From positions 1 through 21,541 of IMG/VR virus record IMGVR_UViG_3300021964_000653: a DNA stretch of 21,541 bases; one strand, 5' to 3'. Position 1 is the first letter of the stretch. Every line of letters starts with the position of its first letter. Source of the stretch: a virus. Of the stretch, positions 6,008 to 8,729 are shown in pieces. The notes below the pieces were generated by a model that was not told the origin of the DNA, did not search any database, and saw only the letters and a program-made list of their open reading frames with translations. The position numbers and the translations under genes were made by a program.

Positions 6008-6217
6008 ATGTATATTTTTGAAGAATATCCGATTGAAGATGGAAAGAAACCACATTATGGAATTCGTGAATTCGATGGGATCTTGGGTGAAGACAGAATT
6101 ATTGCTTATGGAACTGATGAGAACAAATTAAAGAGGGTGTTTCGAAATTTGAAACGAAGTGGTGGATTCGAAAATATGACACCAAAATTTTTCAAAACCG
6201 TGCATTTTTTTGGTTGA
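6008..6217 (+). CDS. Hypothetical 69-aa protein
   Basis: Start ATG 6008 is chosen because GAGGTGA (5996-6002), which overlaps the helicase stop, is a near-perfect SD 5 bases away. A GTG at 5999 is also in frame. The sequence MYIFEEYPIEDGKKPHYGIR leads into KLKRVFRNLKR, suggesting a small alpha/beta protein with a basic helix. It ends with TGA inside the -35 region of the next promoter. No family recognised. Confidence 0.75.
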   Translation: MYIFEEYPIEDGKKPHYGIREFDGILGEDRIIAYGTDENKLKRVFRNLKRSGGFENMTPKFFKTVHFFG

Positions 6218-6242
6218 AAAAAAATAAAATCTCTGGTATTAT
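6214..6242 (+). promoter_or_regulatory. Early sigma70-type promoter P2
   Basis: TTGAAA 6214-6219, 17-bp spacer, TGG then TATTAT at 6237-6242; transcription start about 6249. The -35 contains the stop codon of the preceding gene (TGA 6215-6217). The leader resembles the other class I leaders but reads ATCATG instead of ATGATG. Confidence 0.8.
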
Positions 6243-6271
6243 ATAAACATCATGAACAAAGGAGAAAGAAA

Positions 6272-6538
6272 ATGAAAGTACTAGTCAACGAAGTAGAGAA
6301 CGAGGGTCTTGATTCTCTTCTGGGGCAAACCGTTACGCTATGGTGCGGCGTGTACATCTACACCGGCAAGCTGGTGGGGGTGAATAGCACCTGCGTTAAG
6401 CTAGAAGATGCGATGCTTGTCTATGAAACGGGGGAATTCACCTCTACAAAGTGGAAGGAAGCTCAATCGCTCAGTACCGATAGCTGGTACGTGCAGGTCC
6501 AGTCTATTGAAAGCTTTGGCGTTATGAACAAGTCATAG
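6272..6538 (+). CDS. Small beta-rich protein, possibly Sm/SH3-like barrel
   Basis: 88 aa, SD AAAGGAG. The pattern GQTVTLWCGVYIYTGKLVGV, then CVKLEDAMLVYETG, then WYVQVQSIESFGV is a run of short strands with tight turns, which suggests an Sm-like or SH3-like small barrel; this is a fold guess, not a family match. Composition is more GC-rich than the helicase gene. A short upstream ORF in its leader (ATG 6252, MNKGERK) ends with TGA overlapping this start, so translation may be coupled. Function unknown. Confidence 0.85.
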   Translation: MKVLVNEVENEGLDSLLGQTVTLWCGVYIYTGKLVGVNSTCVKLEDAMLVYETGEFTSTKWKEAQSLSTDSWYVQVQSIESFGVMNKS

Positions 6539-6612
6539 TGACGAAGCGGGATAGCTACTTGCCTAGATCCGGGTCAGGGCCAGGGTCTGGGTCTGGGTCT
6601 GGGTCTGGGTAG
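6538..6612 (+). CDS. Possible 24-aa Gly-Ser repeat ORF (first of three)
   Basis: GTG 6538 overlaps the preceding TAG stop (TAGTG). It reads TKRDSYLPRSGSGPG and then (SG)n up to TAG 6610-6612, which is itself built into the ribosome site of the next ORF. There is no clear SD and the start is non-ATG, so this is weak. It is listed because it keeps the same Ser-X phase as the two following ORFs. Confidence 0.2.
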   Translation: MTKRDSYLPRSGSGPGSGSGSGSG

Positions 6613-6617
6613 GGAGG
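6571..6617 (+). other. G-quadruplex-type motif running into a ribosome site
   Basis: Eight runs of GGG (6571, 6577, 6583, 6589, 6595, 6601, 6607, 6612) are separated by loops of 3,3,3,3,3,3,2 bases, mostly TCT. This exceeds the G3N1-7 x4 rule and resembles telomeric repeats in form. The last run is part of GGGAGG, the SD of the ORF at 6623. Both the coding-strand DNA and the mRNA could fold. The motif is seen directly; a regulatory effect is inference. Confidence 0.7.
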
Positions 6618-6626
6618 TAATTATGA
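6604..6626 (+). repeat. 23-bp linker, copy 1 (stop + SD + start)
   Basis: Contains TCTGGG, the stop TAG, the SD GGGAGG and ATG A. The second copy at 6785-6807 differs at one base (T6622 versus C6803). It joins one Ser-X ORF to the next. Confidence 0.9.
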
Positions 6627-6793
6627 CAAGTGGCTATTGGTCTAGGACTAGGTCTAGGACTAGGACTAGGTCTAGGTCTGGGTCTAGGTCTAAGTCTTGG
6701 TCTGGGTCTGGGTCTGGGTCTAGGTCTTGGTCCGGGTCTTGGTCTGGGTCTTGGTCTTGGTCTAGGTCTGGGTCTAGGTCTAGGTCTGGGTAG
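6623..6793 (+). CDS. Ser-Arg/Gly/Trp dipeptide-repeat ORF 1
   Basis: 56 aa. ATG 6623 has a strong SD, GGGAGG, 5 bases upstream. After MTSGYW comes an alternating Ser-X chain, X being Arg, Gly or Trp (for example SRSGSRSKSWSGSGSGSRSW), ending SRSRSG and TAG. The start codon is followed by repeats in the Ser-X phase, as in the next ORF although that one lies in another absolute frame. If translated, the product is a short, basic, disordered peptide; SR/RGG-like chains are known in other organisms to bind RNA or self-associate, but nothing here proves that. It could instead be non-coding repeat DNA with chance ribosome sites. Confidence 0.4.
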   Translation: MTSGYWSRTRSRTRTRSRSGSRSKSWSGSGSGSRSWSGSWSGSWSWSRSGSRSRSG

Positions 6794-6807
6794 GGAGGTA
6801 ATCATGA
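6785..6807 (+). repeat. 23-bp linker, copy 2 (stop + SD + start)
   Basis: One mismatch from 6604-6626, at an offset of 181 bp. Carries the TAG of ORF 1, the SD GGGAGG and the ATG (6804) of ORF 2. Confidence 0.9.
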
Positions 6808-7037
6808 TAACTACTCGACAGAAGGTTAGGTCTGGGTCTTGGTCTGAGTCTGGGTCTTGGTCCGGGTCTGGGTCTTGGTCTGGGTCTTGGCCTTGGTCTG
6901 GGTCTGGGTCTAGGTCTAGGTCCTGGTCTAGGTCTGGGTCTTGGTCTTGGTCTAGGTCTTGGTCTGGGTTTAGGGCTAGGTCTAGGTCTGGGTCTCGGTC
7001 TAGGTCTGGGTCTTGGTCTAGGTCTGGGAGTATATAA
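6804..7037 (+). CDS. Ser-Arg/Gly/Trp dipeptide-repeat ORF 2
   Basis: 77 aa. ATG 6804 follows GGGAGG with the same spacing as ORF 1. MITTRQKV precedes the repeat (RSGSWSESGSWSGSGSW and onward) and the chain ends SRSGSI with TAA 7035-7037, just beyond the array. Ser codons are almost all TCT and the partner codon is NGG, so one variable base decides Arg, Gly or Trp. The 11-base gap to ORF 1 and the shared linker suggest tandem duplication of a small gene. The reading is a proposal: the antisense and other sense frames are also open, and the only support for this frame is the ribosome site and start. Confidence 0.42.
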   Translation: MITTRQKVRSGSWSESGSWSGSGSWSGSWPWSGSGSRSRSWSRSGSWSWSRSWSGFRARSRSGSRSRSGSWSRSGSI

Positions 7038-7073
7038 GAGTGGTGTATCTGTTGTTTAGGGACAATTTTTCCC

Positions 7074-7102
7074 TTGACAAAAAATAAAATTCCTGGTATT
7101 AT
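7074..7102 (+). promoter_or_regulatory. Early sigma70-type promoter P3
   Basis: TTGACA 7074-7079, 17-bp spacer, TGG then TATTAT 7097-7102; start about 7109, which is the first base of ATGATGAACGAG. Drives the SprT-like gene and what follows, up to the terminator at 8141. Confidence 0.88.
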
Positions 7103-7132
7103 ATAAACATGATGAACGAGGGAGTCAATCAG

Positions 7133-7444
7133 ATGTTTCGTATCGATCAGACCACCGTCCAAGCACATTTTGCCATGTTGAATGCCATGCATTTTGATGG
7201 TGAATTGTACGTAGACGAGTTCTGGATTGATGAATCAGATGACGATTTCTGTGGTGTAGATGAAGTGGATGGTGAGATTGTCATTGGCATGTGTAAGGAA
7301 TACGACGATGAACATCAGTTCATTTGTCTCCTTGCTCATGAAATGACTCATGTTTGGCAGATCCAGAATGGATACGATGGTGGGCATGATGGTGAGTTTC
7401 TGACCGTTGCGAAACGATTGGAAAAGAGTGATATATATATCTAA
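7133..7444 (+). CDS. Mini SprT-like zinc metalloprotease domain
   Basis: 103 aa from ATG 7133 (SD GAGGGAG). An in-frame ATG at 7109 would add MMNEGVNQ but coincides with the predicted transcript start. The active-site motif HEMTH is at residues 69-73 and a third likely zinc ligand is H85 in GGHDGEF, the HExxH...GHxxxF/W layout of SprT-like peptidases. The protein is only a minimal domain, with an acidic N-terminal half. Phage homologues are usually of unknown target; a role in clearing proteins from DNA is possible by analogy with SprT/Spartan. Its last 18 codons lie inside a 69-bp sequence that is repeated 500 bp downstream. Confidence 0.88.
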   Translation: MFRIDQTTVQAHFAMLNAMHFDGELYVDEFWIDESDDDFCGVDEVDGEIVIGMCKEYDDEHQFICLLAHEMTHVWQIQNGYDGGHDGEFLTVAKRLEKSDIYI

Positions 7445-7456
7445 AGGAGATCGAGA
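7388..7456 (+). repeat. 69-bp direct repeat, copy 1
   Basis: Identical to 7888-7956 at an offset of exactly 500 bp. This copy holds the end of the SprT-like gene (stop 7442-7444) and the SD AAAGGAG of the following gene. The bases just outside (T7387/G7887 and G7457/A7957) differ, so the limits are sharp. Confidence 0.98.
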
Positions 7457-7459
7457 GAG

Positions 7460-7903
7460 ATGACAGTTTCAGTGTTCTCTGCGGCTAAGCGTCTGTGTGA
7501 GCTAAACGATTGGTCAATATCAAATTTAGAGCTTCAAAAGCTGCTCTATTTGGCTCACATGGTTCGGCTTGGTCGGACCGGCGAGCCGTTGATAGATGGC
7601 GGTTTCGAAGCCTCGAACTATGGTCCCGTCCAGCCGTCGCTGTACCACCGCGCGAAAGTTTTTGGTTCAGATCCCGTGGGCAATGTATTTCACACCGCTG
7701 GACCAGTCGTCCCTGGTCAGGACCTAGACGCGATTCAAGAAATCTCCGAACAGTTGAAAGGTGCGGCGCCAGGGAAACTGGTTGCGATCACGCATTGGGA
7801 ACAAGGCGCCTGGGCAAAGCACTATCATCCTAGCTATCGTGGTATGCCGATCCCGAACGAAGACATCCAGCAAGAGTATTTGGACAGGATGGTGAGTTTC
7901 TGA
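7460..7903 (+). CDS. Panacea-domain (SocA/GepA-like) protein, possible antitoxin
   Basis: 147 aa, ATG 7460 with AAAGGAG in the repeat upstream. The N-terminal half carries the family pattern: LELQKLLYLAHMVRLGRTGE, then FEASNYGPVQPSLYHR. Panacea (DUF4065/SocA) proteins are best known as antitoxins that neutralise varied toxins, and as proteolytic adaptors (SocA). No toxin partner is evident beside it, so it could be a solitary antitoxin that counters host toxin-based defence; this is inference. The gene is GC-rich (36 of 60 bases at 7561-7620, against 24 of 60 at 7201-7260) and sits between 69-bp direct repeats, so it looks recently acquired. The last codons (MVSF and stop) are supplied by the second repeat copy. 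Confidence 0.88.
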   Translation: MTVSVFSAAKRLCELNDWSISNLELQKLLYLAHMVRLGRTGEPLIDGGFEASNYGPVQPSLYHRAKVFGSDPVGNVFHTAGPVVPGQDLDAIQEISEQLKGAAPGKLVAITHWEQGAWAKHYHPSYRGMPIPNEDIQQEYLDRMVSF

Positions 7904-7956
7904 CCGTTGCGAAACGATTGGAAAAGAGTGATATATATATCTAAAGGAGATCGAGA
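7888..7956 (+). repeat. 69-bp direct repeat, copy 2
   Basis: Perfect copy of 7388-7456. Here it provides the last codons of the Panacea-type gene in a different frame and the SD (AAAGGAG) for the 54-aa ORF that starts immediately after it. Recombination between the two copies would remove exactly 500 bp and restore a SprT-like gene followed by the 54-aa ORF. Confidence 0.98.
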
Positions 7957-8223: not shown

Positions 8224-8394
8224 ATGATGACAAAAATCTCGTACATTGAGAAGGGTAAAGATTCCTGGAATCTTGTCGTTCTTAGTCTTGATAAGAGTGA
8301 TGAGAAGACCGAGATATTTTCGTATCAGACAAAAAAAGATGCTGAAGATGCAAAAAAGTTGTTGACAAAAATTAATTCTTTTGTTATGATATAA
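8224..8394 (+). CDS. Hypothetical 56-aa protein, possibly leaderless
   Basis: ATG 8224 (or the adjacent ATG 8227) reads MMTKISYIEKGKDSWNLVVL and ends INSFVMI with TAA. A strand-strand-helix pattern is visible (ending KKDAEDAKKLLTKI). No SD precedes it and the promoter places the transcript start at the first base of the ATG. Its last codons contain the next promoter. It is short and unrecognised, so moderate confidence only. Confidence 0.5.
   Translation: MMTKISYIEKGKDSWNLVVLSLDKSDEKTEIFSYQTKKDAEDAKKLLTKINSFVMI
8362..8390 (+). promoter_or_regulatory. Early sigma70-type promoter P5
   Basis: TTGACA 8362-8367, 17-bp spacer, TGT then TATGAT 8385-8390; start about 8397. It lies entirely inside the 3' end of the 56-aa ORF. 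Bases 8389-8425 are identical to 1098-1134. Confidence 0.85.
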
Positions 8395-8425
8395 ACATGA
8401 TGAACGAAGGAGTGAATGAAATGTC
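8389..8425 (+). repeat. 37-bp leader repeat shared with 1098-1134
   Basis: Exact copy of the -10 end, untranslated leader, SD and first codons found at 1098-1134 before the nuclease-like gene. The two downstream proteins are unrelated. Confidence 0.95.
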
Positions 8426-8729
8426 TCTAGTAGGTCATAGTATCGGTGAATTGACCAGTGTCAAGTTTTCTGAAATGCGGAAGACTCGGGTTTCCGAAAG
8501 TGGCGCTAAGTATGTTGTCTGGTTTGAGTTGACTGAGACTGGTAATCTGGTTGAGTTAGATACCGACTCGGTGGAACATTCCAAGACTCTGATTGATGCT
8601 TGGTTAGGTCACGATCCTGATATGCGGTTTCTTACTGCTTCGTATCGGAAGGTCAAGACTGATGGTAGTCTTGGAAAGTGTGAAGAGATTATCAACAGGG
8701 ATTTCGATTATCTCGATCTGGATTTGTGA
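8421..8729 (+). CDS. Hypothetical 102-aa protein
   Basis: ATG 8421 with SD GAAGGAG; the in-frame ATG at 8397 falls on the predicted transcript start. Begins MSLVGHSIGELTSVKFSEMR; contains YVVWFELTETGNLVELD and ends DFDYLDLDL. Probably a small alpha/beta protein with an acidic tail. First gene of a run of small genes (8421-9163). Function not recognised. Confidence 0.8.
   Translation: MSLVGHSIGELTSVKFSEMRKTRVSESGAKYVVWFELTETGNLVELDTDSVEHSKTLIDAWLGHDPDMRFLTASYRKVKTDGSLGKCEEIINRDFDYLDLDL

Follow-up and report, generated by a model that had tools for sequence, protein, structure and literature searches.

A predicted acidic Sm-fold protein and Ser-X repeat peptides encoded side by side in widely different phages

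Introduction

Is a block of tandem NGGTCT hexamers in a phage genome a set of genes, a DNA or RNA element, or a repeat that happens to be open, and, if it is coding, with what would its products work? This question is raised by a 21.5-kb virus record from a T4-like phage (the window, by which we mean the whole stretch of DNA analyzed), whose + strand carries genes that, from reading their translations, we take to be RecA/UvsX-like and replicative helicase-like. A first-pass annotation had read the hexamers as chains of Ser alternating with a second residue X (hereafter SX), a reading of which the coding part has stood while the upstream Sm-fold gene (6272-6538), half of the system, had been missed.

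Among annotated phages, megablast with the window gave no match; a distant match in Synechococcus phage S-SCSM1, a Gly/Ser-rich stretch within a 2600-aa virion protein, was discarded, no relation being shown. In a literature search outside which most subscription journals lay, no paper was found on such a module, on such peptide strings or on phage hexamer arrays. The Sm-like and SX pair is undescribed, and it is present in hundreds of phage sequences.

Organization of the locus

The features of the locus are the following, the SX ORFs and their SDs being read from the sequence:

6214..6242, + strand: predicted sigma-70-type promoter of the module (TTGAAA-17-TATTAT, the second hexamer being preceded by TG); its unit recurs at 7074-7102
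6272..6538, + strand: unannotated gene of an 88-aa acidic protein of predicted Sm fold, family A1 (AlphaFold2 model, structural matches, alignment)
6538..6612, + strand: SX ORF 1, 24 aa, MTKRDSYLPRSGSGPGSGSGSGSG; GTG start, TAG end, leader MTKRDSYLPRS
6615..6622, + strand: SD and spacer of SX ORF 2 (ggaggtaatt region); SD identical in the near-identical phage L011
6623..6793, + strand: SX ORF 2, 56 aa, MTSGYWSRTRSRT...; kept in L011
6796..6803, + strand: SD and spacer of SX ORF 3, repeating the element that precedes ORF 2
6804..7037, + strand: SX ORF 3, 77 aa, leader MITTRQKV followed by (R/G/W)-S repeats; identical in L011
7063..7124, + strand: the ~60-bp promoter unit once more (84% identity with 6203-6264), marking the right-hand limit of the inserted module

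The NGGTCT units span 6571-7028, with TRF scores of 293-334 for the main block and 51 GGTCT cores between 6584 and 7026; TRF and the sequence thus confirm the array and its three ORFs (24, 56 and 77 aa) as first annotated. The duplicated stop/SD/start element said to link the ORFs was also found, GGGTAGGGAGGTAAT(T/C)ATG being present twice with GGAGG 5 nt before the ATG. ORF 1 starts at the very end of the Sm-like gene, whose TAG stop shares its G with the GTG start (one-base overlap), and the leader of ORF 2 is atypical. Regarding the frames, the remark that the two main ORFs lie in different absolute frames and keep one Ser-X phase extends to all three ORFs, which occupy three different absolute frames with a common X-Ser phase. 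L011 departs from the window at 15 substitutions and one gap of 12 nt (two units), and ORFs 2 and 3 with their SDs are kept.

Coding evidence in the hexamer arrays

Comparison with other phages is the most informative evidence on what the array is. GGTCG, GGTCA and GGAGC arrays lie at exactly the same place behind the partner gene in other phages and encode the same chain. Sorted by their dominant Ser codon, the 241 non-redundant linked ORFs are of TCT (139), TCG (62), AGC (25), TCA (13), TCC (1) or AGT (1) type, with a median Ser-codon purity within an ORF of 1.0, and Arg is encoded by AGG (109 ORFs pure) or CGG (48 pure), seldom by a mixture; in one locus (L568), Lys AAA takes the place of most Arg, and in another (L549) the peptide is free of Gly. 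Since the Ser and Arg codons are swapped between phages while the X-Ser chain stays, comparative sequence evidence shows that selection acts on the SX peptide as a protein and that the three ORFs of the window are genuine genes. The uniform codons within one ORF would follow from unit-wise homogenization within each phage, and the observed purity fits such a gain and loss of units.

The X positions carry Gly (30.6%), Arg (30.2%) and Trp (27.9%). The bases found at the first X position form the sets AGT (130 ORFs), CGT (56), ACGT (13) and others (18); none of the linked SX ORFs showed an A/C/G set, in which Trp would be missing. In 4989 hexamers of TCT-type arrays, non-consensus bases amount to 64.7% at N1, 11.4% at G2, 3.6% at G3, 4.8% at T4, 4.5% at C5 and 2.2% at T6, in agreement with the earlier statement that variation is concentrated at the first base of NGG. 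Changes are thus most frequent at the first X base and least frequent at the two wobble positions, and it is here that the first-pass annotation has to be amended: the low variation of TCT and GG is real, but it does not argue for coding as had been proposed, low wobble variation alone pointing away from it.

This constancy is what a GGTCT core acting as a DNA or RNA element (a binding site, a G-quadruplex or an RNA ligand, such as one bound by the Sm-like protein) would predict, the reading frame being a by-product in which changes at N create no stop in the Ser frame. The same partner gene is however followed elsewhere by a GGTCG, GGTCA or GGAGC block, and nothing stays constant but the X-Ser chain so encoded, with its in-frame start and leader. 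The Ser-codon swaps lead us to reject such a core, the main alternative of the first annotation, as a general explanation and to regard it as highly improbable here, and they strongly support the view that the blocks code for Ser-X chains and are not a motif of the DNA or RNA. An Rfam search returned nothing above the gathering score and one sub-threshold chance match.

A selfish or neutral microsatellite, open by chance, is the other non-coding reading. GGTCT hexamer arrays exist in bacterial chromosomes, and the phage arrays do change length by whole units; nevertheless, the inspected chromosomal arrays are mostly single-unit runs (RSRSRS, WSWSWS, GSGSGS) or lie inside other ORFs, with neither partner gene nor leader, whereas the phage arrays keep three unit types near-equal, one partner family and a start with leader. 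Arrays that change length freely, shift frame and lose their SDs had been named beforehand as what would tell against coding; they were not seen, close pairs differing by whole units (12, 6, 48 and 48 nt). We consider it extremely unlikely that the array is such a microsatellite, and the class of non-coding tandem repeats was rejected, six Ser and two Arg codons serving one chain and 167 of 167 arrays being Ser-coding. Coding SX chains are the reading retained below.

An upstream partner of predicted Sm fold

The 88-aa A1 protein was modeled by AlphaFold2 with a pLDDT of 94.3 and a pTM of 0.83, and, in structural comparison, this model best matches Sm/LSm proteins (Z up to 10.6), including yeast Sm in the spliceosome and archaeal SmAP heptamers (Z about 10). 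Arrays whose records lack A1 led to a second family of small genes directly upstream, A2, which is homologous to A1 (hhalign 96.4%, E 1.3e-9) and whose model (pLDDT 95.9) likewise matches Sm/LSm structures with Z up to 9.8. Both models have the Sm fold, defined by an N-terminal helix, which may be short, and a five-stranded and strongly bent barrel.

Sequence searches gave a different picture. The A1 protein has no Pfam match and nothing below E 0.2 in PHROGs; for A1 and A2, no Pfam LSm/Hfq match was found, and the PDB sequence search returned nothing better than E 0.68. No Hfq relative is among the best 50 structural matches listed for the two models. By inspection of a 40-member alignment, the A1 consensus (YIYTGKLVGVNxTCVKLExA ... 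YVQxxxIESFG) is without MN and without RG, that is, the RNA-contacting motifs of Sm1 (D-x-x-M-N) and Sm2 (R-G) were not found in it. As the models have the fold and both the motif and the profile searches failed, we term the A1 and A2 proteins Sm-fold, on the strength of the predicted structures, and not members of LSm or Hfq. Being acidic and, in A1, devoid of the canonical RNA-contacting motifs, the Sm-like protein may not bind RNA itself.

Spread and linkage of the two genes

At least 79 A1 relatives were found in viral contigs from unrelated surroundings, most with an NGGTCT array just behind the gene, and candidate relatives in one viral collection number at least 258 for A1 and at least 363 for A2. 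Apart from one MAG contig and two deposited genomes of uncultured phages, the relatives come from metagenomic virus contigs. Both deposited genomes, from Manatee Spring, hold the same module as the window, deposited without function: in MW202825.1 the A1 gene, next to SX, is unannotated, and in MW202573.1 the A2 and 43-aa SX products (UOF78857.1 and UOF78858.1) are hypothetical proteins.

When period 6 alone was demanded, with no demand for Ser, a hexamer array lay directly downstream in 167 of the 181 distinct Sm-like loci among those listed (A1 and A2 together), an evident array being absent behind about 8% of the Sm-like genes. All these arrays proved to be of Ser type, 164 with Ser at at least 70% of alternate positions and three degenerate; no period-6 array of a non-Ser kind was found among the 167. 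The nearest open ATG is in the Ser frame at 125 of them, in another frame at 30 and absent at 12. Taking the families separately, an SX ORF stands just downstream in 182 of the 192 A1 gene copies listed (copies, not de-duplicated loci), 50 with an offset of -1, and downstream in 64 of the 73 listed A2 loci with enough sequence, 27 with that offset; A2-linked SX ORFs use all six Ser codons. The commonest arrangement in relatives is indeed an Sm-like stop overlapping the SX start (offset -1, ATGA). An obvious SD precedes 91 of the 241 SX starts, and many others rely on the stop/start overlap.

Many arrays without A1 in their record led to A2, and some, in fragmentary contigs, have no recognized partner. 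A 113-kb record (L205) has tandem SX-like ORFs (about 1820-2700) that are Ser-rich at X too (SSSWSTS), with the leader MIQKIIRTNRS and no recognized partner gene. One contig (L206) bears two A1-type genes in tandem, each with its own SX ORF behind, and in two A1-bearing loci a distinct, though similar-looking, MLRSMAMLGS-type repeat lies upstream of the A1 gene (L102:3903-4175, L158:3306-3761).

Outside phage records, the chromosomal GGTCT arrays were dismissed as SX relatives, being ordinary microsatellites, with one exception (L325/L569): a short contig of a Patescibacteria MAG (JANLHH010000148.1, genome G033) that carries an A1 gene and SX ORFs, and that may either stem from a phage and have been binned with the MAG or point to a host. 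A prophage search found A1 or A2 in none of 398 genomes of one phylum and, among 380 genomes of a second phylum, only in G033; no module was found in the plasmids searched.

Properties of the peptides and signs of partnership

SX peptides consist of a leader of 5-15 residues and 10-45 Ser-X repeats, with Arg, Trp and Gly sharing the X positions about equally. Leaders differ according to the partner: those linked to A1 are basic (MATKRTKYRS, MIRGKKQKWS, MRGLKQKYRS; K+R 39%), whereas those linked to A2 (MNQAILRAGFD-type) are of the MNQAILRAGFDR, MIILKANEW or MTAAILANPNTLW types (K+R 10%), and at least three K/R occur within the first nine residues in 79 of 109 A1-linked against 5 of 98 A2-linked leaders, a comparison of two lineages uncorrected for shared descent. 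The Sm-like protein has a median charge of -4 in both branches, all members being negative, and the SX peptide has a median of +10, with 239 of 241 positive. From these sequence properties, the acidic Sm-fold protein probably binds the basic SX peptide directly, through the leader, by which each peptide would dock onto the Sm-like branch that it accompanies.

The X residues follow one another much as in shuffled chains, identical neighbors being slightly fewer than in shuffles, and the share of Trp scatters as a binomial would (sd 0.091 versus 0.092). A composition that is kept together with a near-random order suits a sticker-and-spacer chain and would not be expected of a folded or sequence-specific peptide.

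Opposite charges would also suit an anti-host effector or toxin acting on membranes, ribosomes or a defense protein, with the Sm-like protein, translated ahead of it from a shared message, as its chaperone or antidote. A small acidic gene followed by a small basic one with an overlapping start, as well as the accessory cassette position of the module (see below), agree with such a role, and the Arg/Trp richness recalls cationic antimicrobial peptides. However, a toxin with a defined target would not usually come as one to six tandem ORFs for each partner gene, with free length change and near-random X order, and in two loci (L116, L157) SX copies stand away from or before the partner gene. We judge this role, the strongest of the rival readings, unlikely and favor, in what follows, a sticker-and-spacer chain working with its Sm-fold partner.

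Promoter copies and cassette exchange

In the window, the module sits between two copies of the promoter unit (promoters 6214-6242 and 7074-7102). Two relatives (L002, L003), 98% identical to the window in the helicase protein, lack the module at this site and have one promoter copy, a hybrid whose left half is like the left copy of the window and whose right half is like the right copy. By its sequence, this hybrid is the apparent footprint of an exchange between repeated promoters. Other close relatives (L005-L008) have a different cassette between two promoter copies at the same site, which suggests that the promoter-bounded site is a general exchange point. The ~60-bp sigma-70 unit, with an MMNEG(V)N start context, occurs in the window at 1063-1133, 6203-6264, 7063-7124 and 8362-8427, and such recurring units apparently serve as recombination sites for gene cassettes.

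A second repeat of the window, ~76 bp long and made of the 3' end of a SprT-like gene with its SD, occurs directly at 7381-7456 and 7881-7956 and flanks a Panacea/SocA-like antitoxin gene (7460-7903, PF13274). As three relatives (L002, L003, L009) lack this gene and have the ~76-bp sequence once, the gene is a recent insertion in the window.

In other phages, the recognized neighbors of the module, a rough sample chosen by ORF length, are mostly methyltransferases, helicases, RecT/Sak4 proteins, polymerases and integrases. This bears on a possible role in the virion, in which the Sm-like ring would be a structural or genome-retention piece and SX a packaged DNA-binding peptide. Small basic peptides accompany DNA in some phages. 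Moreover, an Sm-fold ring, that of host Hfq, gates the head-neck of T4 (PMC12270204). Yet the module lies behind an early-type promoter among replication genes in the window, its neighbors in other phages belong to replication, recombination and methylation, and the close relatives L002 and L003 live without it at this site; a virion role is quite improbable. Taken together, sequence comparison shows the two genes to be conserved together across widely different phages and, here, to form an accessory cassette between early-type promoter copies.

Proposed function

We put at about even the chance that the pair is a two-part early accessory phage module, made of an acidic Sm-fold protein and of sticker-and-spacer peptides that bind nucleic acid and self-associate. 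The SX chain would work by composition and not by order, with Arg and Trp as stickers and Ser and Gly as spacers. Slightly less assured is the activity itself: going by its composition, SX may bind RNA or DNA in a multivalent manner and self-associate, while the Sm-like protein would load, nucleate or restrain it during early infection. More tentatively, the pair may be a phage RNP or DNA-protein condensate system in which Sm-fold rings would carry many free-standing (Arg/Gly/Trp)-Ser chains in early infection and be exchanged between phages as a cassette.

If true, phages would have an Sm-fold protein whose partner is Arg-rich and of low complexity, and the module would bear on the way in which phages, at an early stage of infection, organize nucleic acid or disarm their hosts. 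SX peptides escape ordinary annotation, being of low complexity, masked by BLAST and often under 70 aa. They offer a natural protein series of near-fixed composition, random order and swapped codons, and hence a test of whether composition alone carries function.

Comparison with known systems

Bacterial Hfq has an intrinsically disordered tail (PMC5606850), and the phage pair resembles it in that an Sm fold would work with a disordered charged segment. In Hfq, however, the tail is acidic and covalent, whereas in the phage pair the body is acidic and the chain basic and separate, and no sequence relation was found. The gating of the T4 neck by host Hfq shows that phages can also put Sm rings to other uses (PMC12270204).

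SR proteins and RS domains share with SX the alternation of Ser and Arg, low complexity and basic character. It is from this likeness to eukaryotic SR chains that the first-pass annotation drew a possible RNA-binding and self-associating role. A survey has tied viral RS-domain proteins to nucleic-acid packaging and processing, phages being unmentioned in it, and its RS-domain threshold is S+R of at least 70% (PMC9479744). SX chains fall short of this value, Ser making up about half and Arg about 15% of their residues; X is Arg in about a third of cases and Trp or Gly in the rest, and the SX ORFs hold a leader and repeats only, without an RRM, as free-standing peptides of about 40-90 aa.

Sticker-and-spacer condensate chains are close to SX in their Arg and aromatic stickers, their Gly/Ser spacers and a composition kept with nearly random order. 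They differ from SX, which has a regular Ser at every second residue, is of phage origin and is known from sequence alone.

The eukaryotic and archaeal Sm/LSm proteins (SmB/D1/D3, SmAP) are akin to the A1 and A2 proteins in predicted fold, size and strand order, with structural Z of about 10. In the phages, a gene of its own encodes the Arg-rich low-complexity part, the Sm-like protein is known as a single-chain model, A1 is without the canonical RNA-contacting motifs, and neither A1 nor A2 has a detectable LSm sequence relation. SmB, SmD1 and SmD3 carry Arg-Gly-rich tails. By analogy, the condensate reading, itself tentative, would make the phage pair a possible prokaryotic-virus counterpart of this arrangement of an Sm core plus low-complexity tails.
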